From Rhizobium lusitanum (lineage in GTDB: Bacteria > Pseudomonadota > Alphaproteobacteria > Rhizobiales > Rhizobiaceae): a DNA stretch of 64,000 nt. This document shows positions 11,144-31,748 of the stretch, piece after piece (position 1 is the stretch's first letter; each line of letters opens with the position of its first letter). The notes beneath the pieces were generated by a model. It was not told the origin of the DNA and made no database searches. It saw nothing but the letters and a program-made list of their open reading frames with translations. The DNA is taken from the NCBI RefSeq assembly GCF_014189535.1, contig NZ_CP050307.1:620001-684000 (forward strand), read 5' to 3'. Position numbers and translations under genes: made by a program.

Positions 11144-11664
11144 CGGTGCACCCCCGGAAACCTGTTCTTGGTCATCAGGCCGGAAGGAACCTTCTCGTCC
11201 TCGATACTTTCGCGGCTGATGGTGAGGGCGACTTCGCCGGCATTGATCTGAGCGCTCATCAGCTTCAGCCCGTGCCATTCCGCTTCAATCAGATCGGGGG
11301 AGCTGGCGAGAACGCAGGCGATGTTGACCGTCGCGAAATCGGTGAACGACCGCAGAAGCTTGGCGATATCGTTATCGACGTTCTCCAGGACGAGGCTGGT
11401 GTCTGTCGCGACGTCATCGATGTCGGAAGGAACGGTGGCAGAGGCCAGCACGAACAGGTAAGGATCGGTGACCGGATTGACGTCCATCCAGGTCGAGCGC
11501 GTGCAATACATCAACGGATCGTCCTGGAGCCTTTCCGTTGGGTCCGTGGACAGCAGGATCGGCTTATCGAGCGAGGAATGCTCGATGTAAAACAGCACGG
11601 CATAGATCTCGCTGGTGTTCTGGGCATCCTGCGCCAGGCGCGCGGTCAGGGACATACGCCTCAT
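11140..11664 (-). CDS. DUF1833-type minor tail protein
   Basis: 174 residues. The start at 11664 forms an ATGA overlap with the upstream gene. The sequence is beta-rich, with a segment of the type YEAVLFYIEHSS near the start and a late EWHGLKLM segment. It sits between a minor tail gene and NlpC/P60, the place filled by lambda L/M-type tail-tip hub components. The family name comes from sequence resemblance and order; function is structural by inference. Confidence 0.7.
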   Translation of the reverse strand: MRRMSLTARLAQDAQNTSEIYAVLFYIEHSSLDKPILLSTDPTERLQDDPLMYCTRSTWMDVNPVTDPYLFVLASATVPSDIDDVATDTSLVLENVDNDIAKLLRSFTDFATVNIACVLASSPDLIEAEWHGLKLMSAQINAGEVALTISRESIEDEKVPSGLMTKNRFPGVHR

Positions 11665-12083
11665 GGCATCACCCACACGGAGAAGGATTTTCGGAATTCA
11701 ACGCCGACGATCGCTTCGGCCGGCATAGTGTCGCCGAACATGCAGAGCCACCGTGCCGATAGAAGGATCTGACGGCCAGCCGCCGTCAGAAGCGGCCGGC
11801 CATCGGCCGCGTAAAGCTTCCATCCGTCTGTCGTGGGGTCGGGCATATAGAACGGCTTCGAACCGCGCGAAGTCGTGCTGCGATGGAAGCGGTCAAAAAT
11901 GGCTTTGCCGTTCCGGTCAACCAGGATGGACAGGCTGACCTGATCGGCGACCGAGGAAAAGCGTGAGCGATAGCTGGGAGGGCCGGCTTCGTTATTTCGT
12001 TTGAGACGGCTTTCCTGCGGCGAGCTTTGCCAACTCTCCCGCTCCGGCTTCGGCAATTCGATCGGCCAGGTCGCGACAGTCAT
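11661..12083 (-). CDS. minor tail protein
   Basis: 140 residues. Start 12083 follows a weak GGAT. The protein opens with WPIELPKPERESW, typical of tail proteins that sit just after the tape measure in alphaproteobacterial siphophages. It then has a predicted beta core (SLSILVDRNGKAIFDRF; a late LLSARWLCMFGD). Length and order match the first of the tail-tip hub genes. It overlaps the start of the next gene by ATGA. No enzymatic motif is present. Confidence 0.72.
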   Translation of the reverse strand: MTVATWPIELPKPERESWQSSPQESRLKRNNEAGPPSYRSRFSSVADQVSLSILVDRNGKAIFDRFHRSTTSRGSKPFYMPDPTTDGWKLYAADGRPLLTAAGRQILLSARWLCMFGDTMPAEAIVGVEFRKSFSVWVMP

Positions 12084-12201
12084 AGGCGGCCATCCCGGCC
12101 GCGTCCGACCGATGGATAAGACTTGCCTGAATGTGCGTTGCGGAGTGCCATGACCAACCAAAGAAAAGGCCGGGAAGACCCGGCTGGATTGGCTCGATCA
12201 T
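11992..12201 (-). CDS. possible small protein overlapping the minor tail gene
   Basis: 69 codons from an ATG just downstream of repeat copy 1. The last 45 residues are alternately charged and Ala-rich and could form helices (DLADRIAEAGAGELAKL). They overlap the minor tail frame by 92 bases in another frame. No strong ribosome site was seen, and a TTG at 12222 would also fit. It may be a real small tail gene or an accident of high-GC sequence. Confidence 0.25.
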   Translation of the reverse strand: MIEPIQPGLPGLFFGWSWHSATHIQASLIHRSDAAGMAAYDCRDLADRIAEAGAGELAKLAAGKPSQTK

Positions 12202-12217
12202 GGCCCGAGCTGGGCAT

Positions 12218-12244
12218 GGCAAAACAGCCGCAAGGGCTTGTGGG
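12218..12244. repeat. 27-bp module-boundary repeat, copy 1
   Basis: On + it reads GGCAAAACAGCC, then GCAAGGGCTTGTGGG. It differs from copy 2 at a single base. The part CCGCAA-GGGC-TTGTGG is a dyad with one G.T pair. It lies between the end of the tape measure and the tail-tip genes, a possible promoter site for the tail-tip operon. Nothing else is evident in 12084-12312. Confidence 0.75.
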
Positions 12245-19098: not shown

Positions 19099-19100
19099 GA

Positions 19101-19342: not shown

Positions 19343-19363
19343 GGCTGGCGCATGACGCCAGCC
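19343..19363. terminator. hairpin after the major capsid gene
   Basis: A perfect 8-bp stem (GGCTGGCG / CGCCAGCC) with a 5-base loop lies in the 115-bp gap between the capsid stop and the next gene. There is no U-tract on either strand. It is therefore more likely an mRNA-stability or attenuating hairpin that favours capsid expression than a full terminator. Confidence 0.45.
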
Positions 19364-19416
19364 GGGCTAAGGACATTGTCCTCGCGACGCTCCCGCTCGA
19401 AATCCACCCGAAGGCG

Positions 19417-20355
19417 TCAGAGGACGTCTTCCAAAAGATATCCAAGCTCCGGAGCCGCCACGACTTCCTTGACGCTTTCGCCGGAGCGGACACGGACGGA
19501 CCCCTTGAGACCGATCTTCGGTTCGTCCATCGATCCGGAGACGCGTTCGCCATGCTGTGCAGTCCAGGCAAAGGTCGGCGTCGCATCTATCGAGCTGGCG
19601 AGAGGTGCCTTGAAGAACAGCAACGCATTGCCGCTCCAGGCGCGCTGCATGCTGACGGCCTGCCCCTTCTTCGAGCTGTTGATCCAGCCTTCGCCGATGA
19701 TGATGTCATCCAGCTCCAACAGATCAGCCACGGCGCGCTTGTTCGCCATGCCCTTGTCGGATCCGGATACTGTAAGCGCCTGAAGCACAGTCGGGTTGGT
19801 GCGTAAGCCGGTCCATTCGACGCGGCCCAGCACCATGTTGTTCGGGCGCATGACCATGGTGTCGGCGGCTTCGCTGATCAGCCGGATCGGATTGCTGGCG
19901 GCATCCGACCACTTGTCCGTGCCGGTCAGTGTTTCCTTGTTGCTGGCAGGATAGAGACTTCCGTCGAACGCCTTGTTGGCGACGCGGACTTCGCGATCCA
20001 GAAGCACCAGATCGATGAGCTTCTGCGCGGAGAACGCGCGCGGATCGTAGCCGGCCGGCGCATTGTTGATGTCATCGAGCGGAATGACGTCGTCGAGACC
20101 GTAATCGTCGGTCTTGTCTTCGTGCTCGTCACCCTGAAACTCGACTTCATTGGGCGAGGACTTACGGCCGACTTTCGTGTCCTGGACGGTGATGAACTGA
20201 CCGAACGCGAACGACCACCAGGTGAACTTCTTCTTCGGCAGGTTCGGCGTCAGGCGCGGCATCACCAGGTCGGCGATCAGCGTATTGTTCTTGTAGGCGT
20301 TGATGATACCGGTCAGCACCGGATCGACGGGGAACGGCGTGCCGCTCGTGCTCAT
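19417..20355 (-). CDS. major capsid protein
   Basis: 312 residues. The segment PFPVDPVLTGIINAYKN near the N-terminus, the long acidic loop DEHEDKTDDYGLDDVIP and the late GERVSGSMDEPKIGLKG strand match major capsid proteins of Mu-like siphophages (HK97 fold presumed). It follows the decoration protein, as in related phages. The protease/scaffold gene upstream supplies processing. No sign of truncation. Confidence 0.87.
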   Translation of the reverse strand: MSTSGTPFPVDPVLTGIINAYKNNTLIADLVMPRLTPNLPKKKFTWWSFAFGQFITVQDTKVGRKSSPNEVEFQGDEHEDKTDDYGLDDVIPLDDINNAPAGYDPRAFSAQKLIDLVLLDREVRVANKAFDGSLYPASNKETLTGTDKWSDAASNPIRLISEAADTMVMRPNNMVLGRVEWTGLRTNPTVLQALTVSGSDKGMANKRAVADLLELDDIIIGEGWINSSKKGQAVSMQRAWSGNALLFFKAPLASSIDATPTFAWTAQHGERVSGSMDEPKIGLKGSVRVRSGESVKEVVAAPELGYLLEDVL

Positions 20356-20382
20356 GTTGACTCCTTAGAAAGTTGAGGGCGA

Positions 20383-20754
20383 TCAGCCCTGGATCTGGCC
20401 GGGGGTTACGAGGACACGGGCGATGTCACCAGAGACAGCGCCGATGGTGAGGATGCCGCCTGTTCGCGCGTTGGCGGCGGCGGCGGGAGCTGCGGCGACG
20501 GCCTTGCCGCCAGCACCGGCCGTGAAGAACGAGCCGAAGGTGACAGTGCCGCCAACCTGGACTTCGGTTTCGCCAAACAGAACGACATCGATGCGCTCGC
20601 CGGCCGCAGCACCGCCCGGATAATCGGTGACACCGATGATCTTGTCGGCGGGCGCGGTCGCAAGATCGACCTGACCGTCAGATGCGCCAGCCTTGACCAG
20701 CACCTGGTGACCGATGGCCGCGACAGCGACGAAAGACTTGATAAGCTTGCTCAT
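20383..20754 (-). CDS. capsid decoration protein (DUF2190-like)
   Basis: 123 residues, almost entirely Gly/Ala/Val-rich beta structure, including VLVKAGASDGQVDLATAPAD and IIGVTDYP. This is the profile of head cement proteins that stabilise the expanded capsid. It lies between protease/scaffold and major capsid genes, 18 and 27 bases from each. Function is known for the family in general and inferred here. Confidence 0.78.
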   Translation of the reverse strand: MSKLIKSFVAVAAIGHQVLVKAGASDGQVDLATAPADKIIGVTDYPGGAAAGERIDVVLFGETEVQVGGTVTFGSFFTAGAGGKAVAAAPAAAANARTGGILTIGAVSGDIARVLVTPGQIQG

Positions 20755-20772
20755 GCTGGACCCTTTCTGGCC

Positions 20773-21231
20773 TTAGCGTTTGGTGAGGCGCATGGCCGCT
20801 TCAGCCGGCGAGATTGTCTCGCCACGCCCGCGCGCCGCTTCGATTTCGGTATTGATCGCGTCCTTGACATGGGCCGGATCGGAGAAGTCGGGACCGTCGC
20901 CGGCAGCGACCTCGCCCGTTGCCACGGGAACTGGCAGCTTGCCGAGCAACTGGCGGAAGCCCTCGCGAGCGGACAGCGACTTGCTTTCGCCATCTTCCGA
21001 GAACGAAAGAACGCCATTGTCCAGGTCAGCGAAGATCGCCGTCACCAACGGCTTCAGCCCGACAGGGAGACGGCCGGCCGAAACAACTCCGTTGACGAAC
21101 ACTTCGTCTTCGGCAGTGCGGGCGGCGCGCGCAGTCTCTTCGTTCTTGCGGGCCTTTTCCGCAAAGCTCGTTTCACGCTCCGCGATCTCACGCTCACGGC
21201 GTTCCAGTTCGGCAATTTTGGCTGCGTCCAT
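20773..21231 (-). CDS. internal in-frame scaffold product (Mu gpZ-like)
   Basis: ATG 21231 within the protease gene is preceded by AGAGGA at ideal spacing. The product (152 residues) starts MDAAKIAELERRE and consists only of the coiled-coil scaffold domain. Mu makes its scaffold Z from an internal start in gene I in the same way. The nested start is inferred from the ribosome site and domain boundary. Confidence 0.62.
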   Translation of the reverse strand: MDAAKIAELERREREIAERETSFAEKARKNEETARAARTAEDEVFVNGVVSAGRLPVGLKPLVTAIFADLDNGVLSFSEDGESKSLSAREGFRQLLGKLPVPVATGEVAAGDGPDFSDPAHVKDAINTEIEAARGRGETISPAEAAMRLTKR

Positions 21232-21894
21232 GACATCCTCTTTTTCGGTGTAGGTGGTGAACGGTGCTGCGGGCTCCGGATCGCGGATCAGCTGTGCAGC
21301 CTCGGTGATGGTGTCGATGCGCCAGGACGGAACGACCGCGTCGGCCGCTTCGATGCCCTTGTCGGCGATGATCGATTCCCGGAAAGTACGAAACAGGCCG
21401 GCGATCGTGTCGAAGACCCACGCCGTCCGAACGATGGCCGCATCATCGAACTGGACAACATCGGCGTCGTCGGCGAACTCGATCGACTTCAATCCCTTCA
21501 CGGCGGGCGCTGCCGCGCCCAGGAAGCCGACGTGCTTCAGGTAATATTTCCCTGGCGTCGGGTTGTTCGGATGATTGGGCGGATAGAAGCTCGAAGAGAC
21601 CTTGCTGAACCGACGATCCTTCACCAGCTCGGCAAACTGCGGCTCGACGTTTTGCGGCTCGGCAACAAGATGACCGTCCCTGAACGAAACGGACTTGATC
21701 CAGCCATAGGCCGGTGCATCCTGTTTCGGATGCCCGACGACGATCGGCGCTTCATGCAGCGCCGTATCGTATTGCGTGGCGATCGCCTGCAGGTCGTCAT
21801 CCGTGAAGGAAAACGGCCGGCCTTGGCTATCGGTGTGGTTGCCAGTGCGGAAAATATCGATCGGTTTCATGCCGGGCAGATTGGCCCAGGGCAT
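20773..21894 (-). CDS. head maturation protease / scaffold (Mu gpI-like)
   Basis: Up to 373 residues. MKPIDIFRTGNHTD begins at 21870, with eight further residues if the ATG at 21894 is used; neither start has a clear ribosome site. The N-terminal domain (to about residue 160) carries APIVVGHP and SKVSSSFYPP, typical of Mu-like phage proteases. Residues about 220-373 form a charged coiled-coil scaffold. Mu gpI cleaves the scaffold after head assembly. Repeat copy 2 ends only 3 bases upstream of the 21894 start. Confidence 0.88.
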   Translation of the reverse strand: MPWANLPGMKPIDIFRTGNHTDSQGRPFSFTDDDLQAIATQYDTALHEAPIVVGHPKQDAPAYGWIKSVSFRDGHLVAEPQNVEPQFAELVKDRRFSKVSSSFYPPNHPNNPTPGKYYLKHVGFLGAAAPAVKGLKSIEFADDADVVQFDDAAIVRTAWVFDTIAGLFRTFRESIIADKGIEAADAVVPSWRIDTITEAAQLIRDPEPAAPFTTYTEKEDVMDAAKIAELERREREIAERETSFAEKARKNEETARAARTAEDEVFVNGVVSAGRLPVGLKPLVTAIFADLDNGVLSFSEDGESKSLSAREGFRQLLGKLPVPVATGEVAAGDGPDFSDPAHVKDAINTEIEAARGRGETISPAEAAMRLTKR

Positions 21895-21897
21895 TTC

Positions 21898-21924
21898 GGC
21901 AAAACAGCCGCAAGGGTTTGTGGG
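21898..21924. repeat. 27-bp module-boundary repeat, copy 2
   Basis: Differs from copy 1 at one base (CTTG to TTTG in the dyad arm). It is placed directly before the protease/scaffold gene, 161 bp after the stop of the G-like gene. Mu has its late promoter P_I just before gene I. The remaining gap, 21925-22085, shows no gene. Confidence 0.75.
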
Positions 21925-22085
21925 AAACCGGCGATCGGAAGCGATTAGCCTGTCAGAGACATATCACACCCGCCCCCAGGGGCAAGGCTTCGCCGTTAAA
22001 GTGGTTTCTAAGGCCGTAGACGGCGATTGAGGCGTCGCCTGCGGCAATCTCCCGTCCGGAGCCCCTGAGCGCGTTTCTGGGGCCG

Positions 22086-22598
22086 CTATTTCGATCCGGC
22101 CGTATTCTCGATCGCATCCAGGAAGTGATCCTCAATGATCTCCTGAATACGGACCTGGTCCTCGCTGCTGAAGCCGAGAAATTGACGCCGGGGGATTGTG
22201 ACCTTTTTCACCATGAAGGTCTGCCCGCCCATGGAGAACATCAGCGCGGCGGCGTTCTTCGGAACGATGGTTGCGCCCTCGTTGTGGGCACGGGCGTAGA
22301 TCACATTGGAGCCGATCTCCACCCCGCTCGATGCGAGCTGCCAGATGATGCTGGACAGATCGCGCGTCGCGCCGACAAGGATCGAAGCGCCCTTCTTCGT
22401 GAGGGCATAGAGATCGTTGAGCTTCTGCCAGGCATTGCCGTCCGGATCCTGCTGGGTGCGAAACCGCTCCTTGGTCGCCTCGGCCTCATACTCGCCGATG
22501 TTCTTGTAAACGGGCGTCAGGGTGCCGGCCGCAGCCAGCAGGCGATCGAGGGCGTCAATGATTTCCTTGTCGTCGATCGTCAGTGTTGCTGCGCTCAT
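22086..22598 (-). CDS. virion morphogenesis protein (Mu gpG-like)
   Basis: 170 residues. Start 22598 has GGAGG six bases upstream; upstream in-frame ATGs lack it. The pattern IDDKEIIDALDRLLAAAG, then RFRTQQDPDGNAWQKL, then a Gly-rich strand region ending RRQFLGFSSED matches the phage virion morphogenesis / tail completion family. It acts in joining heads and tails. Downstream, a 160-bp non-coding gap leads to repeat copy 2. Confidence 0.87.
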   Translation of the reverse strand: MSAATLTIDDKEIIDALDRLLAAAGTLTPVYKNIGEYEAEATKERFRTQQDPDGNAWQKLNDLYALTKKGASILVGATRDLSSIIWQLASSGVEIGSNVIYARAHNEGATIVPKNAAALMFSMGGQTFMVKKVTIPRRQFLGFSSEDQVRIQEIIEDHFLDAIENTAGSK

Positions 22599-22691
22599 TT
22601 TGGCCTCCATTGTTTTGCGCGGCCACGCGTAGTATATTTGAGGCATGGCAGATCGAGGCTTTCCGGAGCCCTCCGTAGATCTGTCTGCCCG

Positions 22692-22724
22692 AGGCGCGCA
22701 CCGGAATGCGCGCCTTTATTTTTT
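22692..22724 (+). terminator. rho-independent terminator-like hairpin on + strand
   Basis: The stem GGCGCGC / GCGCGCC (22693-22699, 22708-22714) is followed on + by TTTATTTTTT. On - it sits just past the stop of the F-like gene and lacks a U-tract. A + strand terminator inside a leftward operon could block antisense transcripts; as RNA of the - strand it may protect the 3' end. Confidence 0.55.
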
Positions 22725-23954
22725 GCGGTAGAGCAACGCACCTTTCCTGAACCCCTGAATGTAGCTATCGGTGGTGTCGAAACCGGTGATGGCGGTCCAG
22801 CCGGCCTTCGTCCATTCGAAGCGAAGGAAGAGGCTCTTTCCGTCCGGCAACAGGACGCGTTTCAAATAGGCCCTTCGCAGCACGATGCCTGACTTGACGC
22901 TGGCCCAGTCAACCCAGATCTCGTCGGGCTCCCTGATGGCATCCGCCAGGAGAGCAGCATATTGACCGCGTCCGCGCTTGCCGCTCTTGAGACCAACGAC
23001 AGTGCCGTCAGGCATGCGTTGCTCGAAGAGTGCCTTGCTGATGGCAATGATGCCGCCCGATGGGTCCCGGTAATAGCCTTTCTCGTCGCCTTGCAAGCCG
23101 AACCGCGACAGAAAGGCCGACGCATATTCGTCAGGCCCCCGATCGGCGGGAAGAACTTCTGTCGGATCCGCCTTCGTCTCTGGCGGCAATGGAGGCAGTG
23201 ATCGCTGCTGCGGCACGGCATCTGCAGGGGCGAGCGGCTGGCGCAGCTCCGTGGGCACGATGCCAGAAAGCCATTCCTCGCCGACATTGTAGTCCCAGCC
23301 GCGATCGATGCCGGGATAACGCAGCTCCGGATAGCCGGTGCGTGGATCCACGCTCTCATATGGCGTCAGGTCCGGAGCCTCATCGGGACCGGATTTTCCA
23401 AGCCGCTTCAAATCCCGTTCAGAGAGGGCTTTGACATCGCAACCACAGCCCCAGCCGTTTGGCGGAAACATGTATCTCCAGGCAGGGTCGATCGTAGCGA
23501 GAACAAGGCCATCCCAATGTAGATGCAGCAAACGGGGATGCAGTGCACGTGAATGGACATACTGGAGATAGGGCCGGTATTTCAGAACGTCCGGATCGGT
23601 CAGCTGCTTCCAGCGCCCAGCCATATAGGATGTGCGCATGTTCGTCCTGTAGATGATCCCGGCGCGCCATTCGTGGCGCTCCTCGTCAGTGCCGCCCTTG
23701 GCATTAAACTTCCAGCCGGTGCGATCGACGATCTCGTCAAAGGTCTTTCGAAACTCGTTAAAGCCCGTGCCGGCAGTGCGAGCCGTCAGCAGTGCCGCCA
23801 TGAAATCCGAGAGCATATCGTCGCGGGCGATGCCGGCCACGGTGAAGCCGCGCACCTGGCCCTGCCGCATGACATCGTCCCAGCGCTTGGTCGGCAGGTT
23901 GACCTTGTTGCGCAGAAAGTCGATCGCTTCCTGGAAAGGGAGTTGATCAGCCAT
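22716..23954 (-). CDS. F-like minor head protein with C-terminal nuclease-like domain
   Basis: 412 residues. Residues 1-230 follow the Mu F / SPP1 gp7 head morphogenesis pattern (QVRGFTVAGIARDD, RTGWKF, IIYRTNMRTSYMAGRW). After a Pro-rich linker (about 255-285), residues about 295-412 form a compact domain that resembles phage Barnase/ColicinE5/RelE-like nucleases. These are often carried on head proteins and injected. The F part helps organise the portal and ejected proteins. The nuclease reading is from memory of the family and is less certain than the head part. It overlaps the portal gene by 8 bases. Confidence 0.82.
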   Translation of the reverse strand: MADQLPFQEAIDFLRNKVNLPTKRWDDVMRQGQVRGFTVAGIARDDMLSDFMAALLTARTAGTGFNEFRKTFDEIVDRTGWKFNAKGGTDEERHEWRAGIIYRTNMRTSYMAGRWKQLTDPDVLKYRPYLQYVHSRALHPRLLHLHWDGLVLATIDPAWRYMFPPNGWGCGCDVKALSERDLKRLGKSGPDEAPDLTPYESVDPRTGYPELRYPGIDRGWDYNVGEEWLSGIVPTELRQPLAPADAVPQQRSLPPLPPETKADPTEVLPADRGPDEYASAFLSRFGLQGDEKGYYRDPSGGIIAISKALFEQRMPDGTVVGLKSGKRGRGQYAALLADAIREPDEIWVDWASVKSGIVLRRAYLKRVLLPDGKSLFLRFEWTKAGWTAITGFDTTDSYIQGFRKGALLYRKK

Positions 23955-25419
23955 TGCCGGATGCTTGCCCTTCCAGGTCCGCCGCCACAGTCGCCTGCGC
24001 CATTAGCTGTGCGAGATCGTCGATCGACATGTCGCCGGACAATCGCGCCAGGCGCTCGGCCAGATCGTCATAGGATGTCGCCTCGCTAAAGGCTGCCTCG
24101 ATATCGGCGATCATGGTGTCGATCGCCGGCCGGCCGAGGGTGGCCAGTTGGTCCGAAAGATCCGCGACGGTTTTCTCGGACTGCGTTTCCGGACGCTCCG
24201 GATCGGCGAAGGCAAGACCTGCGGCGGCACTCGGCTGCTGGTCGGCTGGGTTTGGTTCGGCAATCTTCTGCTGCTCTACCCACTCGCCGCCATAGGTATC
24301 GTTGATGTAGTCCACCGAGGCTGGCTTATAGCCCATGCCGTAAATGGTCTCGTCGCGCTTGACCTTTTCGTCCAGATCTTCGGCCTCGGAGAAGTCGCGC
24401 CATACGTCCGGAACCGCTTCGCCCGGATAGTTTAGATCCACGTACCACTGAACCGCTGTTTCCTTGATGGTCTGGCAAGTCAAATCCGCATCGGCCTTCG
24501 CGATCGCGATACGGACTTCGTTGTGGATTTCGCCCAGGGACCGAGCACCGCGTTCACCGGAATTGGTGCTCAAGGTCTCACCCAATACCGCTTCGCTCAT
24601 TAGCTCGTCGAGATAGCGCGAAAGTGTCGCGAATTGATCGCCCTGGGTCTTGGCTTCGAGCAGCTCGACCTTCACGTTCTCGGGAAAGATGAGGCTGTCG
24701 GATCCCTGCATGGACGCAAACACACCCGCCAGCTGATCTTGTTTCAGCTGATCGAAGCCACCCTGATACTGTCCAAGCGTCGTCGGCGACGCATGCTTGC
24801 GGGTGGCCTGTAGCCAGTTTGCCAAAACCTGGCGCTTGAACCAGGCGGGCCAGAACAGCACCGAACCGAGGCCGACGCCGTAGGGGTCGTCATCGTCGTC
24901 ATCGACGGAATGGCGATGGATAACAAACTTACGATCTGGCACCGCAATGCCGTCGACCGGTGAAGATCGGGTCAGGACGCGCAGGTTTCCATCCATATCG
25001 AACCGGAAGCGCCGCTGTTTCTTGACCTTGATCGAAGAGGGCTTCCAGACACCTTCGTCGTTGATCCACATGATCTCGCCGACAGCAAAGCCCTTCAGCA
25101 CAGCACCCAGCAGCCCTTTGGTCAGGCGGTCAAAATTGACCGCCTTCAGCCATAGTTCAACCTCGGCCGCGATCCGCTTGTCGATCCGGCGATCGGAAGC
25201 CTCGAACACCTTCCATTCCCGGCTGACCACTTCGAGCTTGCGCTTCTGCAGGATGGCAAAGGCATGTGGATCGCGTCGGATCTCGTCATAGACCTTGTAG
25301 GCCGACGCGCCGCCACGCGACACTAGTACCTCGTCCGTCGGCTGCATAACCGTCTGGAAGAACGGCACAAACGGGTCCGACTGTATGGTTGCGATTTCCG
25401 TGGTGACCGGATTTGCCAT
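23947..25419 (-). CDS. portal protein (DUF935, Mu gp29-like)
   Basis: 490 residues, with GAGGATG before ATG 25419. Motifs typical of DUF935 portals are seen: QPTDEVLVSRGG near residue 27, DPHAFAILQKRK near 50, an Asp-rich segment near 175 and NSGERGARSLGEIHNEVR near 285. The portal is the dodecameric DNA gate of the head and the terminase docking site. It lies between the large terminase and F-like genes exactly as in Mu. Confidence 0.93.
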   Translation of the reverse strand: MANPVTTEIATIQSDPFVPFFQTVMQPTDEVLVSRGGASAYKVYDEIRRDPHAFAILQKRKLEVVSREWKVFEASDRRIDKRIAAEVELWLKAVNFDRLTKGLLGAVLKGFAVGEIMWINDEGVWKPSSIKVKKQRRFRFDMDGNLRVLTRSSPVDGIAVPDRKFVIHRHSVDDDDDDPYGVGLGSVLFWPAWFKRQVLANWLQATRKHASPTTLGQYQGGFDQLKQDQLAGVFASMQGSDSLIFPENVKVELLEAKTQGDQFATLSRYLDELMSEAVLGETLSTNSGERGARSLGEIHNEVRIAIAKADADLTCQTIKETAVQWYVDLNYPGEAVPDVWRDFSEAEDLDEKVKRDETIYGMGYKPASVDYINDTYGGEWVEQQKIAEPNPADQQPSAAAGLAFADPERPETQSEKTVADLSDQLATLGRPAIDTMIADIEAAFSEATSYDDLAERLARLSGDMSIDDLAQLMAQATVAADLEGQASGNG

Positions 25420-25467
25420 GTTACATCCTCAAGAAGTTGGTCAGGGTTGCAACCAGCGTATTGCCGC

Positions 25468-27054
25468 TTACGGCCTGCAGGAATTCAGCCATCTGGCTGC
25501 TCGTTTCCTTGTTCTCGCCCACGGCTCCCCGCCGATCGGGCCGCTGTCCTGGTTGGACGCGAAATATGCGAGCGCTCCGGCAATAGCGCTGTCGCCGTGC
25601 CGCTTGTGTCCATCGGCACCGATGGTGTGAACATTCTCCGGGATCTTGGCCACGCCGCGCGTCATCTGCAGGAGGCGATAATCGCCCATGGTGTCATCGT
25701 CGCGCGGGAGATCGATATAGCCGTTCTCGAAGGCATCCTTCAGTTTCGGCATATTCAGCATGTACCAGTCCTGGCTGAACTTGATCTCCGAGACGAGCGA
25801 AGGTCCCAACTTCTGACGCGTGGCTTCGGCCAGATATGCGCCGTTGCCACCGGCATCGAGGGCGGCATGAAAGAACCGCGGCAAACGGTCGATGATGTAG
25901 AAAAGGATCTGCTCTTGCGTCGTGAAAGGAACGTCACGCAACTCCAGAATGAACGGAGTGCGGCGCATCAGGTTGCCCGTCACCAGCATGGGGTGAATGA
26001 CCGACAAGTCCTGCGATCGCGCGAAGTCCTGGCCAAGGCACGAACGCCAGGAGCGCTCGATCTTGTCGAGCAAGGGTTTCAGCTTCTCCTCGCAAAATGC
26101 CTTGGCCTCGGCCTCGCGGACATGCTTTTGCCAGTCGACGAAGCCCTTCGGCGGCGTCCAGCGGATGACCGGGATTTCCGGGTCCATCCGAGCGTCGATC
26201 AACGCACGCGACAGATAGGCACCGCCCGATTGCGAGGGAATGCAGAACAGCTCTTCGTCAGCGCCGGCCGCATAGAACTTGATGATCTTCTCGCGCCATT
26301 CGGCTTCCGCCTCGGGAGACCACTCCTTGCGGGTGACAAAGCAGATGCGCTCGTAAAGACCATCCTGCAGGGCGCTGTCGAGGTCGATCTTCACATGGGC
26401 GTAAGGCAGCTTGCCCGCATGGACATCCTGAATCTGCTGGTTGAAGACGTTTTCGAAACCGTTGTGCGTGGAGCAGACGATAACCTTGCCGCCCCACATG
26501 AGGAACGCCAACGCCGCCTTTAGAAGCTCGGCCAGGTTATCGACGAACGCGGCCTCGTCGATCATCACGATGCCCTGCTTACCGCGCAGCGTGCGCGGCG
26601 CTGACGAAAGGGCGATGATCTCGAAGCCAGAGGCAAAGCGGATCCGGAACGCCTGGATCGACTTATCGCCATCGGGCGACTTGTCGTCGAACAGGAATTC
26701 CTCGGCTTCCATGGCCGCAAGCGAATAGGCGCGTGCCCACATAGCGCAGGCGTCGATGAATTCGCGGGTCATGTCCTGGGCATAGGAGATGTACATTACA
26801 TCCATGCCGCCAGCGGCTTTCTCGCGTGCGGCCTTCAGCGCTGCATAAGCGGCGAAGCCCCAGGTGAGACCGATACGGCGGGACTTCTCGACAAACAGAA
26901 CTTCGACGGCTGTCGATTCCATGAGCGAGATGACGCGGCCTTGATAGGCCAGCAGCGCCTTTGGGAGACCGACTTTATCGACGACGTCCTGCATGGCGTC
27001 AGTTGATAGACGCCTGATCCTTGCCCATTCCTCTTTCGAAAGCGGTCCGCTCAT
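25468..27054 (-). CDS. terminase large subunit (Mu gp28-like)
   Basis: 528 residues. The ATPase part shows a Walker A-like region (EKSRRIGLTWG, about residue 55), Walker B VMIDEAAF (about 160) and a coupling motif CSTHNG (about 190). The nuclease part shows acidic positions in GQDFARSQDLSV and GDSAIAGAL. It packages DNA into heads and, in Mu-like phages, cuts in flanking host DNA. It overlaps the small terminase gene by ATGA; 48 bases separate it from the portal. Confidence 0.94.
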   Translation of the reverse strand: MSGPLSKEEWARIRRLSTDAMQDVVDKVGLPKALLAYQGRVISLMESTAVEVLFVEKSRRIGLTWGFAAYAALKAAREKAAGGMDVMYISYAQDMTREFIDACAMWARAYSLAAMEAEEFLFDDKSPDGDKSIQAFRIRFASGFEIIALSSAPRTLRGKQGIVMIDEAAFVDNLAELLKAALAFLMWGGKVIVCSTHNGFENVFNQQIQDVHAGKLPYAHVKIDLDSALQDGLYERICFVTRKEWSPEAEAEWREKIIKFYAAGADEELFCIPSQSGGAYLSRALIDARMDPEIPVIRWTPPKGFVDWQKHVREAEAKAFCEEKLKPLLDKIERSWRSCLGQDFARSQDLSVIHPMLVTGNLMRRTPFILELRDVPFTTQEQILFYIIDRLPRFFHAALDAGGNGAYLAEATRQKLGPSLVSEIKFSQDWYMLNMPKLKDAFENGYIDLPRDDDTMGDYRLLQMTRGVAKIPENVHTIGADGHKRHGDSAIAGALAYFASNQDSGPIGGEPWARTRKRAARWLNSCRP

Positions 27055-27635
27055 TGCTTCTCCACTCCGAGGATCTGCGACAGGATATCCTGCGCGGTTT
27101 CGGCGCTAAGGCCCCTGGACTTGGTGACACTGTTGACGGCCTTCGCGGCCTTGTCGGCGAAGTCTGCCTCAACCTTCTGACGGCGGGCTGTGGAAACCGT
27201 CTGCGCCTGGGCGGCAGCGCGCAGCGCATTGGCAAGCGACATGGCACCCTTCGGATCAATGCCGCTTTCGCCCTTGCTGGTCAGCAGCTCAAATATCAGC
27301 GTCTTGATCGCCTCGGCCGCGATCAGCGTCAGGTCATCGCTCGCCTGGGCATCGAACTTGCCAGCGATCGCCGTAGCTATCTCACGGGTTTCGTCGAGCC
27401 GGCGCGTCATGGTGGCGAGCTTGAGGGAATAGCGGTTGAAGGCGCTGAAGCTGGGGACCTTGATCTCCAGCTCGCCACGATATTCCTTGTCGAGTGCTTG
27501 CAGCTTGGCTGCAAACTCCTCGTAGATTTCGGTCTGGGTGCGGTCACGGTCCTGCAGCTGCTCGACCGCCCACGCGACAACCGGAGCGCAGGGCTCCGGC
27601 AGCAGCTCAATCTGATTTAGCCGGCCGCGCCCCAT
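27051..27635 (-). CDS. terminase small subunit (DUF3486, Mu gp27-like)
   Basis: 194 residues. Start 27635 (MGRGRLNQIELLPE) is preferred because AAGGGG lies just upstream; a GTG at 27644 would add three residues. The opening and the following helices (YEEFAAKLQAL, SFSAFNRYS) are characteristic of DUF3486. The protein recognises phage DNA for packaging. It overlaps the large subunit by 4 bases. Confidence 0.9.
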   Translation of the reverse strand: MGRGRLNQIELLPEPCAPVVAWAVEQLQDRDRTQTEIYEEFAAKLQALDKEYRGELEIKVPSFSAFNRYSLKLATMTRRLDETREIATAIAGKFDAQASDDLTLIAAEAIKTLIFELLTSKGESGIDPKGAMSLANALRAAAQAQTVSTARRQKVEADFADKAAKAVNSVTKSRGLSAETAQDILSQILGVEKQ

Positions 27636-27636
27636 C

Positions 27637-27951
27637 TTAGTCACCCCTTCGGCTGGGGCGCTTCACGCCTTCGATGATCGTATCGCGATCGAGGTGACGA
27701 CGGCCGAGATTGGTGAGCGTGCCGATTTTGACGGAGCCGGCATCATGCAGGGTGATAGCGCCCATATCCCGCAAGTAGACCATCTGCTGGTGGATCCACG
27801 GCCGTTCCTGACGGATGGCGAACTGCGGCAGGATCTCTTCGATCATGCTGGAGGAAAGCGTTTCGTTGTCCTGCGCGCCCAATGCCTTCAGGATCGTCAG
27901 CCGAGCCTCTTCGCGGAGAATGCGTTGCAGGTCAGTGGATAGATCACTCAT
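27637..27951 (-). CDS. Mu gp26-like winged-helix protein
   Basis: 104 residues. Three helices (residues 1-45), QMVYLRDMGAITLHD (about 57-71) and LTNLGRRHLDRD at the end suggest a small winged-helix fold. A protein of this type lies before the small terminase in Mu (gp26) and many relatives. Its role is not established. Start at 27951 by overlap with the preceding gene. Confidence 0.78.
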   Translation of the reverse strand: MSDLSTDLQRILREEARLTILKALGAQDNETLSSSMIEEILPQFAIRQERPWIHQQMVYLRDMGAITLHDAGSVKIGTLTNLGRRHLDRDTIIEGVKRPSRRGD

Positions 27952-28331
27952 TTTCTCGCCTGCTCCATCAAAAGGTCGTGGAGCCGCTCGCCTGTCGCGG
28001 CGATCGGCCTAAGTTTTTCTTCCAGCGTGGCAAAGCGACCATTCAGTGTTGCCAGCTGCAATTCCATCCGATGTTGGGATTCACGATCGGGCAGATACTT
28101 GATCTCGCTCTCGGCCGCCTGGATCCTTCGATCATGCTCAATGAGCTTCTTCTCGTTAGCTTCCATTTCCTTGTTCAGCGCCACGACAAACTCGGTCAGC
28201 TTGTCGGTGAGCGCCATGACGTCTTCCGCGAGCTTCTTTTCTCCCGAGGAAAAATAGCCCTTCGCGTGGCCCAGGAGAGCAAGCCCGGACAGCACCAGAT
28301 TGAGGTAGAGCAAGATCTCTGGAAGCGTCAT
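27948..28331 (-). CDS. DUF2730 protein (Mu gp25-like)
   Basis: 127 residues: one N-terminal membrane segment (about residues 5-25), then a long coiled coil with many Glu, Lys and Leu (35-120). This fits DUF2730, a family found between lysis and terminase genes in Mu-like phages. It is probably membrane-anchored; its function is unknown to me. ATGA overlap at both ends. Confidence 0.8.
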   Translation of the reverse strand: MTLPEILLYLNLVLSGLALLGHAKGYFSSGEKKLAEDVMALTDKLTEFVVALNKEMEANEKKLIEHDRRIQAAESEIKYLPDRESQHRMELQLATLNGRFATLEEKLRPIAATGERLHDLLMEQARK

Positions 28332-28546
28332 CGGCAGTATACTTCCCGTTCAAAATCGGTCTGGCATTCGGCGCAGCGCGTGGCGGCTGGATAGACCTGG
28401 CGGCGGGCGAGCGAGATGGTGCAGCCGCAGTCGACGCATTCGAGCGTGCCGGCGCGGGTGAGTTTCGCGCGCACTTCACCGACTCGAGCATCGCGCTCCT
28501 GCTCGACGCGGGCTTCGCCGACTTCGCGATCGAAATCACTGTACAT
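28328..28546 (-). CDS. TraR/DksA-type C4 zinc-finger protein
   Basis: 72 residues, starting within the end of the spanin gene. Two Cys pairs (CVDC and CAEC) about 20 residues apart form the C4 zinc finger, preceded by a charged helix. TraR/DksA-like proteins bind RNA polymerase in the secondary channel and alter transcription as DksA and ppGpp do. Mu-like phages commonly carry one near the lysis genes. Promoters affected here are unknown. Confidence 0.85.
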   Translation of the reverse strand: MYSDFDREVGEARVEQERDARVGEVRAKLTRAGTLECVDCGCTISLARRQVYPAATRCAECQTDFEREVYCR

Positions 28547-28808
28547 TCGTGCCTCCCGCGCCGGCAGCACGCCGGGTTTCGCAGGTGCGCAAGCTCGTGC
28601 GGTCGATACCCCAATAGGAGCCGGTCTCCTCATCGCTAAGCTTCCGATCCGGCAAAGGGACAGGCGGCGCGCACGGGATCTTCGCGGCGGGCGGAACTTC
28701 CCGTTCGACATAGACCGTCTTCACGACAGGCAGCGACTTATCGCTTGTTGAGCAGGCGGACGCGCTCGCGGCTAAGACCGCCAGTGCCATCATCTGGAAG
28801 CGCTGCAT
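28536..28808 (-). CDS. outer-membrane spanin lipoprotein (Rz1-like)
   Basis: 90 residues. ATG 28808 starts inside the Rz gene in another frame and overlaps it by 71 bases, the hallmark of Rz/Rz1 pairs. The signal sequence ends in a lipobox with Cys near residue 19 (ASASACS). The mature part is Pro-rich (REVPPAAKIPC, PPVPLPD), as o-spanins are. It would join Rz across the periplasm to fuse the two membranes at lysis. Confidence 0.82.
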   Translation of the reverse strand: MQRFQMMALAVLAASASACSTSDKSLPVVKTVYVEREVPPAAKIPCAPPVPLPDRKLSDEETGSYWGIDRTSLRTCETRRAAGAGGTNVQ

Positions 28809-29091
28809 TTTCCTTCTCCAAGTTTGCGGCTCGTTGTTCGGCGGTTGCGATCTGATCGCGGGCCGCGTCCTGCACTGCCATGGTTTCCTTGAGCGCCTGG
28901 GCAATCTTGGCGTTTGCCTCGGCATTGGATTTCTCGATCTGGCCGGTCCAGTAGGCATCGCGCTCCTGACGGACAGAGGCCGTAGCCTTGTCGATCATGT
29001 CGTCGATCCTGGTGATGGTGAGAAGGCAGAGGCCGGCGATGATGGCGATCGCCGCAAGGCCGGCCAGGGCAATGATTAAATAGCGATTCAT
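28738..29091 (-). CDS. inner-membrane spanin (Rz-like)
   Basis: 117 residues; ATG 29091 overlaps the preceding stop. A single N-terminal membrane segment (residues 4-27) is followed by a periplasmic coiled coil rich in Ala, Glu and Gln (35-105). This is the i-spanin design. The overlapping Rz1-like gene strongly supports it. Confidence 0.82.
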   Translation of the reverse strand: MNRYLIIALAGLAAIAIIAGLCLLTITRIDDMIDKATASVRQERDAYWTGQIEKSNAEANAKIAQALKETMAVQDAARDQIATAEQRAANLEKENAALPDDGTGGLSRERVRLLNKR

Positions 29092-29345
29092 GGTCTCTCC
29101 TCGGGCGGATCTCGGTGCGATCCGCGCATTGCCAGGCGCATGTCGTAGGATCCGAAGCCGCGATGGACGCCGAGCAGTCCGACGATGATCATCACCATGG
29201 ACGGCACGGCGATCGAGCCGAAGGCGACGGCCTGTTCCGAGCCGAGGCATGCGCCTACGGTCAGCGACAGGATCACGAGCCATGCCAGGGCCGAAGACAG
29301 CCAGAGCGCCTTCTTCGATGTTCGATAGGCGGGTTTCGCTACCAT
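29088..29345 (-). CDS. holin-like protein with two membrane segments
   Basis: 85 residues with hydrophobic segments at about 12-33 and 42-62, a basic N-terminus and a charged, Arg/Pro-rich C-terminus. The size, two segments and place between endolysin and spanins fit a class II holin. Sequence alone does not separate it from the neighbouring 54-residue protein, which may be its antiholin or the true holin. Confidence 0.6.
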   Translation of the reverse strand: MVAKPAYRTSKKALWLSSALAWLVILSLTVGACLGSEQAVAFGSIAVPSMVMIIVGLLGVHRGFGSYDMRLAMRGSHRDPPEERP

Positions 29346-29503
29346 TCGAATACGATCCCTGCGATCAGCGAGGCGAGCGCCGCGACAACAACCATGGCAA
29401 CCGCAATCACAAGGTCACGGTCGCCGAACAGGTGCGCCAGGAAGCAGAACAACAGGCCCACGGCGATCAGGATGGCGATGACGCTCCACTTCCCCAGCCA
29501 CAT
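29339..29503 (-). CDS. small membrane protein, holin/antiholin candidate
   Basis: 54 residues starting one base after the endolysin stop. Two hydrophobic segments (about 6-25 and 30-50) fill nearly the whole protein. It overlaps the next membrane-protein gene. The pair could act as holin and antiholin. No RNA or protein motif decides which. Confidence 0.58.
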   Translation of the reverse strand: MWLGKWSVIAILIAVGLLFCFLAHLFGDRDLVIAVAMVVVAALASLIAGIVFEW

Positions 29504-29504
29504 G

Positions 29505-30011
29505 TCAGACGATCGCCGCCTGGAAGTGCATTCCATCCCGGCGCTGGACACTCCATCGACCGCCCCAGATCCAGCCCTCGGCTTCAAAGGCAGCAATGAC
29601 GCGCGGATCCATGGCAGGCGTCGGATCGCCCAGGCCATTGTGATCCGGATCAAAATCGACGGCACAGCCCAGCGCGTGCATCGACAGGCGGGAGATGCCG
29701 CGCATCTGACGCCAGTTGTAGCCGCCGCCGATCAGGTAGAGGTTCGCGGCTTCGATGGCCTTCTGGCTGCAGCCGAAGTCCTGCCAGATCTTGTTGAGGA
29801 TGCGGCCGAGGCTTTCAGCAACCTTGCGATGGACGCGGAAGGACTTGATGGTGAGTGACTTGTCCCAGGAGGCAACGGCCTTCCACGGGATCGGGACCAA
29901 GACAAGGTTCGCCTTTTCCCATGCTGGATCAGCGCCGGCGACACCCTTAACGATCTTGATGTTGTTGCCGTAAAAGGACGCGGCGGCGGATTGAGCAGGC
30001 CAATTGTTCAC
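29505..30011 (-). CDS. endolysin, M15-type peptidase
   Basis: 168 residues from a GTG with GGGGG five bases upstream. Zinc-peptidase motifs of the M15 (VanY/D-Ala-D-Ala) family are visible: SMHALGCAVDFD (about residues 108-119) supplies His and Asp, and RDGMHFQ near the C-terminus gives the last His. It would cut peptidoglycan cross-bridges at lysis. It heads the lysis operon. No signal peptide is present, so release depends on a holin. Confidence 0.88.
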   Translation of the reverse strand: MNNWPAQSAAASFYGNNIKIVKGVAGADPAWEKANLVLVPIPWKAVASWDKSLTIKSFRVHRKVAESLGRILNKIWQDFGCSQKAIEAANLYLIGGGYNWRQMRGISRLSMHALGCAVDFDPDHNGLGDPTPAMDPRVIAAFEAEGWIWGGRWSVQRRDGMHFQAAIV

Positions 30012-30031
30012 GGGAACCCCCAGCAGTTAAA

Positions 30032-30057
30032 GAAAAAGCCGGGCAAAAGCCGGCTTT
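30032..30057 (-). terminator. rho-independent terminator before the lysis genes
   Basis: The stem AAAGCCGG / CCGGCTTT with a 7-base loop is followed on the - strand by a T-rich tail (TTCTTT). It lies 58 bp after the Mor/C stop and about 21 bp before the endolysin start. It could end the middle transcript. If the late promoter lies at repeat copy 3, the terminator would be in its leader, so antitermination or a promoter nearer the gene must be considered. Confidence 0.7.
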
Positions 30058-30087
30058 GCTGAGGGGGAATTTGCTCGTTACGGCCGC

Positions 30088-30114
30088 ACCAAAACAGCCG
30101 CAAGGGTTTGCGGG
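30088..30114. repeat. 27-bp module-boundary repeat, copy 3
   Basis: Shares the 23 bases AAAACAGCC through TTGCGGG with copies 1 and 2 apart from one or two changes. Its dyad CCGCAA-GGGT-TTGCGG is perfect. It abuts the stop codon of the Mor/C gene and precedes the lysis genes, the place of P_lys in Mu. Confidence 0.78.
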
Positions 30115-30474
30115 TTATGTGCCAAACAGGTCGAGCTGGGTGCTTTCGCCGGATTTCAGCCAGCTGCGGACGGTGACGTCCGTGGTGTGGAGCTGGCGAG
30201 CGATGGCGTTCGTCGTGAGGCCCTTATTATACTTTAAATGGGCGGCGATAAAGGGCTTTCCTGTCGGGCAGCGAAAGCCGCCGGCGCCGACCTGTTTTGC
30301 TAGCGCAATCGTTGCCTCGCGCCCCAGCGCCTCGGCCACGGGCGAACGGGCCTGCGGATTTTCCGACAGGTAGACATAAGACCCGCCGAAGGCCAGCAGG
30401 AAGGTAACGGCCTTTTCGATGCCGACCGCCGTCACATACGGCTGAAGGTGGGCGGGAACGCGGATATCAGCCAC
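30115..30474 (-). CDS. Mor/C-type transcription activator
   Basis: 119 residues. FGGSYVYLS (about residues 29-37) matches the Gly-Gly-x-x-Tyr loop and strand that define the Mu Mor/C family. A helix-turn-helix follows at about 84-105 (LTTNAIARQLHTTDVTVRSWL). Mu Mor activates the middle promoter and C the four late promoters. Only one member was found here, so it may do both. As with Mu C, it is the last gene before the lysis operon. An ASCH-like and a small gene precede it in the same direction, overlapping by 8 bases. Confidence 0.85.
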   Translation of the reverse strand: MADIRVPAHLQPYVTAVGIEKAVTFLLAFGGSYVYLSENPQARSPVAEALGREATIALAKQVGAGGFRCPTGKPFIAAHLKYNKGLTTNAIARQLHTTDVTVRSWLKSGESTQLDLFGT

Positions 30475-30658
30475 GGCGCACCTCCAGCTGTTTTTCGACG
30501 ATCAGGATCTGATTGGTCACGGCTTTCAACTCTCCAAGCTTTTCGAACCGGCCGCGCTCATGCGGCCGCATGGTTTCCAGGCGCTTCATCAGCGCGTTGC
30601 GGCGATCTCGAAGCCCCTTCAAGTCATCGTTGAGAAAGAGAGGAAGAACCGCCGCCAT
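30467..30658 (-). CDS. small helical early/middle protein
   Basis: 63 residues, mostly Leu/Arg/Glu-rich helix (coiled coil likely from residue 10). It lies two bases after the preceding gene and overlaps Mor/C by 8. No family recognised. Tight coupling suggests a role with, or co-expression with, the activator. Confidence 0.6.
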   Translation of the reverse strand: MAAVLPLFLNDDLKGLRDRRNALMKRLETMRPHERGRFEKLGELKAVTNQILIVEKQLEVRRG

Positions 30659-30660
30659 GA

Positions 30661-31098
30661 TCAGATCTCCGGGTTCCAGCGAATGATCACACCTTCGAAC
30701 CGGCTCCCCTGGTGGCTTTCCCGCCAGAACCGGCCCATGGTTTCCCGCGCCGTCGAACCGATCAGCCTAGATGGCGCAAGGCCGGCGAGCCGGCCGGGAT
30801 CGAAGCCATCCGAAATGGCGAAGGGCTCGATCTCGTCACGGTGCAGTGGCCGACCGTCGATCTCGATGTATGCGATGCCGGCGTCGATCAGGTCGCTGGA
30901 CATGATGACGATCGGCAACACAGCGACGCAGGCAGGATCGGCGATGATCCTGCGGCAGTTCCGCGTCCGCAGACCGACGAAGAGCTGCAGCTGCTCGCCG
31001 ACATGGGCGTGACGGCGGCGGTGCCCACGGATGGTGTGGGTTTTCGAGCAGTCCTCGATCTGCGGAGCGAAGTAGGATTTGAAGCCGTAGGCGACCAT
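30661..31098 (-). CDS. ASCH-like phage protein
   Basis: 145 residues; ATG 31098 overlaps the GemA stop as TGATG. The opening MVAYGFKSYFAPQIEDCSKTH, then TIRGHRRRHAHVGEQLQL, resembles ASCH/YqfB-like RNA-binding-fold proteins found in phages. The following strands contain many Ile and Val. Its function is unknown; RNA binding is only suggested by the fold. Confidence 0.65.
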   Translation of the reverse strand: MVAYGFKSYFAPQIEDCSKTHTIRGHRRRHAHVGEQLQLFVGLRTRNCRRIIADPACVAVLPIVIMSSDLIDAGIAYIEIDGRPLHRDEIEPFAISDGFDPGRLAGLAPSRLIGSTARETMGRFWRESHQGSRFEGVIIRWNPEI

Positions 31099-31748
31099 CA
31101 CGCACCTGCCTTTCCTGCGCGGACGCGTTCGCCAAGGGCGTTCATGACCGCTTGCCAATGCGATTGTTTCAAGTCTGCCAGCCATACGATGCTGATCCCT
31201 GCCAGCCGCGCCGCCTCCTCGTCGAAGCCCTTGCGAACTAGGAGGTTCGCGTCGGGGTGCAGCATCTTCCACTGCGCCCAGGCGATCTTCGCGGCGTCGG
31301 TGGCGAGCCATTCATAACCATTGGTGTTTCCGAAGCCGACGCCCGCCTCCCGGGCGAGCCAGCCCTTGAGACCTTCGATAGCCTTGGCGGCATCGTCCTG
31401 ATGGATTAGGAAGCGCGTGTGGTCGATTCCGGTCTGGCGCTTCACGAAGGCCAGCATGGCCTTGTCGTCGCGATCTCGGGCGATACCGAGGTTCCAGGCG
31501 GCGATCCACAGCGCCTGGAGCTTCTTCGCATACTTGCCCGTAAGCTTCTGCCGACCGTCCGGCCGGCGTGCCGGCGCTGGGCGGAAACCCTCATTTCGGA
31601 AAACAGTCAGCACCGACAGGCGCTCGGCCTCGGTCATGTCCTTGAGCGAAGCTTTGCCGGTGATACGGGAGAGCTTGGCTCGATAAGCATCGTCGTCTAG
31701 GCCGAGCTGTTTCTTGGCGACGTGAATGGCGGCAACGGACGATCCCAT
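31098..31748 (-). CDS. gemA: GemA-like regulatory protein (Mu gp16)
   Basis: 216 residues. AAIHVAKKQLGLDDDAYR, then ITGKASLKDMTEAER near the N-terminus, and LTGKYAKKLQALWI near residue 70, are diagnostic of the GemA family. Mu GemA alters expression of host genes, possibly through DNA topology. It is the first leftward gene after the + strand cargo pair, whose first gene starts 77 bp away in the opposite direction. Confidence 0.9.
   Translation of the reverse strand: MGSSVAAIHVAKKQLGLDDDAYRAKLSRITGKASLKDMTEAERLSVLTVFRNEGFRPAPARRPDGRQKLTGKYAKKLQALWIAAWNLGIARDRDDKAMLAFVKRQTGIDHTRFLIHQDDAAKAIEGLKGWLAREAGVGFGNTNGYEWLATDAAKIAWAQWKMLHPDANLLVRKGFDEEAARLAGISIVWLADLKQSHWQAVMNALGERVRAGKAGA

Follow-up and report, generated by a model that had tools for sequence, protein, structure and literature searches.

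Three near-identical elements in a transposable (Mu-like) prophage of Rhizobium lusitanum are very probably the activator-binding parts of three late promoters. The prophage, which encodes a Mu-type transposase (phrog_310 match), lies in the 64-kb window, i.e. the whole stretch of DNA that was analysed. A dimer of C, the small helix-turn-helix activator of the prophage, would bind the 16-bp dyad of each element at about –52 to –37, replacing the –35 box, and the bound C would activate host RNA polymerase at a CANNNT –10 box. The operons driven by the three promoters would be those for lysis, head protease and tail. Each phage would have its own dyad/C pair, for which reason the promoters of co-resident prophages should be insulated from one another. 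A second lock is proposed for lysis, in that read-through RNA would pair the lysis Shine-Dalgarno sequence with bases situated mostly upstream of the late start, while RNA started at P_lys would expose it better. The protease mRNA would start at or next to its ATG, i.e. it would be leaderless, and a C-terminal β-clamp-binding motif of C would probably tie late transcription to replicating phage DNA.

The copies, their spacing, the concerted change of the dyads, the leader complementarity and the motif are properties of the sequences compared; from these we infer binding, start sites, activation, and contact with the clamp together with its effect. The elements would be a variety of the known Mu-like late promoters, marked by apparent phage-specific activator/site pairs, a proposed read-through lock on lysis and a predicted leaderless protease. 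A literature search returned nothing on late promoters of rhizobial Mu-like phages among the best matches by title and start of abstract. Papers are cited below by PMC number, and for the excerpts consulted.

Three copies of the element and the genes around them

The elements and the genes beside them are as follows. The dyads were located by exact matches and a genome scan.

12228..12243, minus strand: copy 1, dyad CCACAAGCCCTTGCGG, predicted C site of the tail promoter
21908..21923, minus strand: copy 2, dyad CCACAAACCCTTGCGG, predicted C site of P_I
30098..30113, minus strand: copy 3, 16-bp dyad CCGCAAACCCTTGCGG, predicted C site of P_lys
11661..12083, minus strand: first long gene after copy 1, 140 aa from the ATG at 12083 (start taken from relatives); phrog_384 virion structural protein
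20773..21870, minus strand: head maturation protease, start at 21870; phrog_976, E 1.2e-96, matched from residue 1
29505..30011, minus strand: endolysin (M15 peptidase), first gene after P_lys; phrog_17001, E 3.7e-26; PF13539
30115..30474, minus strand: late activator C, 119 aa, GTG start; phrog_836, E 6.9e-18

The sequence-only reading from which this study started had reported three near-identical copies, and this was borne out. Exact matches to AAAACAGCCGCAAGGGYTTGYGGG were found on the plus strand of the window at 12221-12244, 21901-21924 and 30091-30114, with none expected from 100 shuffles. Read in the direction of the genes (minus strand), the element is CCRCAARCCCTTGCGG followed by CTGTTTT, and the 16-bp dyad on that strand is CCRCAA-RCCC-TTGCGG, again followed by CTGTTTT. 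Many copies elsewhere in the host genome, which that reading had named as evidence against itself, were not found: CCGCAARCCCTTGCGGCTGTTTT, with up to three mismatches allowed, occurs three times in the 6,935,783-bp genome, each time inside the prophage, and the reversed-pattern control gave no occurrence. One other viral contig (L004) contains the exact 22-base core of the element. A scan of the family genomes with two mismatches gave matches in 11 of 394, mostly lone and scattered, and a near-identity search with 12 kb of the window (19000-31000) matched no phage record.

It is apparent from the annotation that the copies are situated at module boundaries, as had been proposed. Copy 1 lies after the tape-measure ORFs and before the phrog_384 gene and minor tail genes, copy 2 lies before the phrog_976 protease, and copy 3 lies between the phrog_836 activator and the endolysin, its shared block adjoining the activator stop codon and its dyad starting one base further on. 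The suggested likeness to the places of the Mu promoters P_lys, P_I and P_P (names from PMC4287176) also stands. In the Mu annotation lys follows C, and I and P come after it in the same order as in the prophage. The Mu promoters, like those predicted for the prophage, stand before lysis, head-protease and tail genes, with the activator gene directly before lysis. In Mu (at P_m too, where Mor acts), as predicted for the prophage, a dyad for a small dimeric activator at or over the –35 region is combined with a –10 box downstream.

The tape-measure region consists of two overlapping ORFs, 12313-13653 and 13650-16313, both matching tape-measure families, and may represent two genes or a frameshift. 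The copy-1 leader contains a 23-codon ORF (12080-12151) that runs into the next gene (ATGA at 12083); L094 has a similar small ORF, L095 one with a non-ATG start, and L100 none.

The earlier claim that a Mor/C-type gene ends at copy 3 holds in part. The adjoining gene matches the profile of the PHROG 836 late transcriptional activators (E 6.9e-18), but neither its product nor any other protein of the genome matches PF08765 (Mor) at E 0.001. Profile comparison of C with Mu C gave an E value of 0.0006 and a probability of only 28%, a weak sequence link. The top match of a fold search of BFVD was a Mor-like factor (E 0.007); comparison with solved structures gave no convincing match and was uninformative. 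The solved Mor structure itself was not among the matches listed, which speaks neither for nor against a relationship. Since PF08765 is not matched and a relationship to Mu C is unproved, C is described here as acting like Mu C and its identity as Mu C is not claimed. Mu has both Mor and C, whereas only one activator gene is recognizable by similarity in the prophage.

Promoter geometry and concerted change of the dyads

In the sequence-only reading no shared –10 box had been found. Comparison with relatives does not bear this out: each dyad is followed by a hexamer at a position that is conserved in them:

12197..12202, minus strand: –10 hexamer CATGAT of the tail promoter, 25 bp after the dyad
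21878..21883, minus strand: –10 hexamer CAATCT of P_I, 24 bp after the dyad and 7 nt before the protease ATG
30068..30073, minus strand: –10 hexamer CAAATT of P_lys, 24 bp after the dyad

The 25-bp spacing of the tail promoter recurs in L094, L095 and L100. Among the relatives CANNNT keeps its position while the dyad varies. The –10 boxes are poor, their constancy residing mainly in A–11 and T–7, and the 7-mer between dyad and spacer is a poor –35 box that is variable outside the close group. When the dyad after C was picked by an automatic rule in 22 phages, the A...T pair of the –10 box (positions –11 and –7) was situated 32–34 bp from the dyad centre in 19, and within 31.5–34.5 bp in 20; offsets outside 32–34 were reached by three phages at most. 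L032 passes only in the wider range, G364 fails with a misplaced dyad and G151 fails outright. A similar rule was obeyed by 10 of 13 further loci, which remained from 21 fetched by single-protein scans after eight copies of known phages or of each other were dropped; the dyads with which L120 and L117 pass are doubtful, L130 is nearly a duplicate of L131, and the failures are L115, L119 and L123, the last having a fitting dyad just beyond the stretch searched. The string CRTAACG, conserved 15–16 bp after the dyad in relatives of copy 3, was considered as a –10 box, but it is absent at copies 1 and 2, and CANNNT was preferred.

If a 6-nt discriminator is assumed, the dyads of the window fall at about –52 to –37, with the centre at about –44.5. 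In Mu P_mom the centre of TTAT-N6-ATAA, presumably the C site, was counted to be 32 bp from the A of TAAGAT, which we take to be the –10 box; the corresponding distance in the prophage is 33 bp. The half-sites themselves differ, being TTAT/ATAA in Mu and CCRCAA in the prophage (CCGAAA, CCGGTC and others in its relatives). Mu-type C/Mor promoters likewise have a 16-bp dyad where a –35 box would be, with its centre near –43.5; the Mor dyad of P_m extends from –51 to –36 (PMC4287176; PMC4390567).

Relatives of the activator were found at seven viral-contig loci, at eight genome loci (L034 being a short partial match only), in 35 of 394 family genomes at E 0.001 and in 10 phage records, duplicates included. 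That reading had proposed a search of related phages for the element before the same genes; dyads do occur at those positions, but their sequence differs by phage. In close relatives the dyad and CTGTTTT follow the activator stop codon, in a degenerate version in L032. Elsewhere the dyads are CCGAAA...TTTCGG (L028), CCGGTC...TACCGG (L033 and L024), CCGCAC...TTGTGG (L021) and others. Within a phage they agree: that of L033 has an identical 16-mer after C, before the protease and before the tail gene (L100), and that of L028 has the same arms at all three sites (the third being L094), L094 and L100 having been assigned to these phages by position. The flank of the protease promoter is nearly identical in the window and L028, yet the arms differ.

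In a comparison of 19 phages, some of whose sites were assigned by hand, copies 2 and 3 of the same phage differ at 1.9 of 12 arm positions, vs 4.8 when permuted, a value reached in none of 100,000 permutations, although the phages are related and the permutation tests in this study therefore overstate independence. Registering the two copies by the –10 box alone gave 3.05 vs 5.26 differences (19 phages; 0 of 100,000 permutations). Such concerted change suggests that each phage has a single trans-acting reader.

The same genome harbours a second Mu-like prophage with a C of its own (G000:C4:548131-548484; L006, L035 and L036), which is 51% identical and has the tail QLSFF. A different string follows this activator (L006); the dyads of the second prophage are TTACAA...TTGTGA after C and TCGCAA...TTGTGA before the protease. 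With its own C and a different dyad, its promoters should be insulated from those of the prophage described here. The isolated Rhizobium phage RR1-B (L107) contains four copies of CCGGAACCGRGTTCCGG, at 11533-11549, 18997-19013, 26074-26090 and 31111-31127, i.e. after the activator and before the protease, the tape measure and a baseplate gene. Three of the four have A...T 32.5 bp from the dyad centre, the same layout with another dyad.

The reader is likely to be C itself, whose predicted recognition helix is located as follows:

30154..30180, minus strand: predicted recognition helix of C, residues 99-107 (AlphaFold model; association with dyad sequence)

In 29 phages, with sites again assigned partly by hand, distance between sites was correlated with distance between recognition helices (r 0.38; 213 of 20,000 permutations) and with distance between the N-terminal parts of C (r 0.24; 717 of 20,000). 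With the other removed, the partial correlations were 0.30 for the helix and 0.01 for the N-terminal part. Helix and arm are paired as TTDVTVR with CCRCAA, TTHVTVR with CCGAAA and TTHKTVS with CCGGTC, and RW[VI]R is found with CCGGAA in RR1-B and L123; the classes are small and the phages related. These pairs, together with the dyad right after the C gene in close relatives and the confinement of the copies to the prophage, argue against late promoters bound by a factor other than the adjacent C, such as a host regulator. That alternative, which draws on the absence of a significant PF08765 match in C, is considered quite unlikely.

The fixed –10 spacing, the concerted change of the dyads, the helix association and the Mu-like positions thus lend comparative support to the original proposal that the elements are sites of the activator. 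The apparent grammar (a phage-specific dyad, 24–25 bp and CANNNT) would make late operons readable in unannotated alphaproteobacterial Mu-like prophages, and the activator/site pairs would provide a natural set of apparently orthogonal switches.

Leaders of the late transcripts

The sequence-only reading had also considered that the elements might be intrinsic terminators, a hairpin being followed by TGTTTT; such terminators would insulate the modules. On the coding strand the dyad is indeed followed by CTGTTTT, and real hairpins with T-runs lie after copies 1 and 3. The element itself, however, is not predicted to form a stable hairpin followed by a T-run: its two arms do not pair in the computed RNA fold, shuffled sequences fold as well as these stretches do (z –0.14, 0.60 and 0.20), just four T's follow the dyad, and by eye copy 2 has no T-run hairpin behind it. 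Termination, moreover, needs neither concerted sites nor a –10 box at fixed spacing, and this explanation is judged very improbable. Least probable of all is the suggestion that the elements are recombination linkers for module exchange between phages, for although they lie at module boundaries and the protease after copy 2 comes from different families by phage (phrog_976 and phrog_328), linkers would be expected to be constant between phages, and the dyads do the opposite, differing between phages and agreeing within one.

If the elements belong to late promoters, the following features lie in the leaders or just upstream of them:

12160..12186, minus strand: inner hairpin and T-run in the tail leader (by eye; a related hairpin, also by eye, in L094, L095 and L100)
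30030..30055, minus strand: terminator-like inner hairpin and T-run in the P_lys leader, z –3.0
30063..30067, minus strand: CCCCC, complementary to the lysis Shine-Dalgarno sequence, just upstream of the predicted +1 (~30061)
30017..30021, minus strand: GGGGG, Shine-Dalgarno sequence of the lysis gene (sequence reading)

The terminator previously noticed after copy 3 is real as a hairpin with a T-run, and is located inside the P_lys leader. The T-run hairpins of the P_lys and tail leaders would be expected to terminate late and read-through RNA alike. The relatives largely answer the two objections that had been raised against promoters, apart from the passage of late RNA through the T-run hairpin.

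The 5-bp CCCCC/GGGGG match of the window is not unusual when taken alone (88 of 300 shuffles); that of the phage set as a whole is. In 18 phages, with sites assigned partly by hand, the summed longest match between bases –10 to +6 and the region before the start codon was 101, vs 68 (sd 3.7) in shuffles, and the complementarity sum of the phages' own pairs was reached in none of 100,000 permutations across phages. G104 and G131 lack the complementarity, and L033 and G000b show it weakly. In 16 of the 18, all but L027 and L033, the larger part of the 5′ arm precedes the predicted +1, so that the arm would be present mainly in read-through RNA, and it is mainly the late RNA that should expose the lysis Shine-Dalgarno sequence. 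Computed exposure was lower in the read-through RNA by at least 0.1 in 13 of 19 phages, about equal in four (L027, G377, G014 and RC1) and higher in two (G131 and StopSmel), the script-picked Shine-Dalgarno sequence being doubtful in some phages; the 18 phages of the complementarity set are these 19 after the removal of L024, which is L033-like. L029 and G364 pair strongly but lack the T-run, which suggests that it is the pairing, more than the terminator, that is conserved.

A comparable control is that of T4 gene e, in which read-through RNA hides the ribosome site and late RNA does not. The late promoters of T4 differ from those of the prophage. In the prophage, too, most of the 5′ arm precedes the predicted late start and the 3′ arm covers the Shine-Dalgarno sequence, the RNA structure in this case being a computed one.

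At P_I the geometry is different. The T of the –10 box lies 6–7 nt before the protease ATG in all 19 phages compared, in which the starts were read off beside the element and hence not blind (RR1-B, StopSmel and Aussie are outside this set). Such a spacing would put the first base of the mRNA on the ATG or beside it, and the protease mRNA is predicted to be leaderless. ORFs from the 19 starts are 345–384 aa long, and the five proteases scanned (window, L027, G000b, G348 and G131) match head-protease families, phrog_976 or phrog_328; the spacing thus holds although the proteases span two families. The –10-to-ATG spacing places the start of the window's protease at 21870; an alternative ATG at 21894 is CTG in L028. 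In Mu, by contrast, the ATG of gene I is preceded by a purine-rich stretch. The best matches of a literature search, judged by title and start of abstract, included nothing on leaderless late promoters of Mu-like phages. Together, the lysis leader and the leaderless protease suggest a double lock, on transcription and on translation.

An inverted repeat, GGGC-CAATCT-GCCC (21874-21887), surrounds the –10 box of P_I just before the protease ATG, and similar repeats are present in several relatives; the hairpin across the protease –10 box is only modestly phage-specific (1105 of 100,000 permutations).

The C-terminal tail of C

The candidate clamp-binding tail of C is the most interesting part of the finding.

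30124..30138, minus strand: QLDLF, candidate β-clamp-binding motif, C residues 113-117 (translation; conserved in homologues)

C ends in QLDLFGT, and QLDLF is the sole such motif in reading frames of at least 70 aa in the window. In the AlphaFold model the tail follows the last helix as a flexible end (pLDDT 59 for residues 111-119). The bacterial clamp-binding motif is Q-aliphatic-x-[LM]-[FL] or a six-residue form and frequently lies in a disordered region, and QLDLF was the strongest clamp-binding peptide in several studies (PMC11139829); QL(S/D)LF at a C-terminus is given as a clamp motif in PMC9690074. QLDLF in the low-confidence tail of C conforms to this description.

Among the 120 homologues listed, of 368 found, a Qxx[LMF][FLI]- or QLxLPL-type tail is present in 117; P0078 stops right after the helix, and P0109 and P0115 have unrelated tails. 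The published patterns, with a final Ile also allowed in the six-residue form, fit the last 25 residues in 89 of the 120, and the five-residue form occurs elsewhere in the protein in one. QLDLF is exchanged for QLTLPL-like tails among the homologues, as five- and six-residue clamp motifs are. The strict form QL[SD]LF was found in 12 of 3138 ORFs (at least 80 aa, fetched regions), all 12 of them C. Four distant homologues (G289, G209, G344 and G117) have neither the tail motif nor a fitting dyad alongside, the latter judged by eye and by the lack of a scan match near C. They are followed by 0–3 matching head or tail genes and form an imperfect negative group, because the motif-bearing G300, StopSmel and Aussie are equally poor in such genes, with three each.

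We give about an even chance to the proposal, based on these comparisons of sequence, that transposable phages tether their late activators to the host replication clamp. C would bind its late-promoter dyads and also, by its QLDLF-type motif, the β clamp that stays behind on freshly replicated phage DNA, and late promoters would fire preferentially on replicating copies. It is less probable, but still a serious candidate, that the QLDLF tail contacts RNA polymerase or another partner. In favour of such a partner, Mu C is reported to act on RNA polymerase in vitro (PMC4461284), so that the clamp seems not to be indispensable for activation as such, and the proline at position 2 in Mu C (QPDLF) and Mor (QPSLL) falls outside the published clamp definition. 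The fit of 89 of the 120 listed homologues to clamp patterns in the last 25 residues, against one with the five-residue form elsewhere, the exchange with QLTLPL-like tails and the restriction of strict QL[SD]LF to C are arguments for the clamp. Expression of the Mu late genes follows the start of replication (PMC4461284), and a tether favouring replicating DNA fits both this timing and the action in vitro. Tethering possibly extends to Mu itself, through QPDLF in C and QPSLL in Mor.

The known counterpart is late transcription in T4, with the gp45 sliding clamp, gp33 and gp55, which likewise employs a C-terminal clamp-binding motif on a linker (PMC2988020; PMC7892883); in the prophage, by contrast, the protein that carries the motif is a predicted site-specific DNA-binding activator, and the clamp to be contacted would be the host β clamp. 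If C binds the clamp, the order in which Mu late genes follow replication (PMC4461284) would acquire a direct cause, and a clamp tether could explain how such phages hold back particle building until replication. It would also be, if true, the second natural case, after T4, of transcription switched by a sliding clamp; a review of T4 late transcription from 2010 states, in the excerpt consulted, that no other natural case of clamp-coupled transcription had been found (PMC2988020). Among the best matches of a literature search by title and start of abstract, none dealt with a clamp motif in Mu C or Mor, and the excerpt of PMC5371812 makes no mention of one.

The C protein of Mu (L108 964-1386) ends in QPDLFSPETPK and Mor (L110 82-471) in QPSLL. 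Both ends resemble clamp-binding tails, and each protein also has a DLF string near its start. A QPDLF-type tail is kept in 17 of 21 relatives of Mu C.
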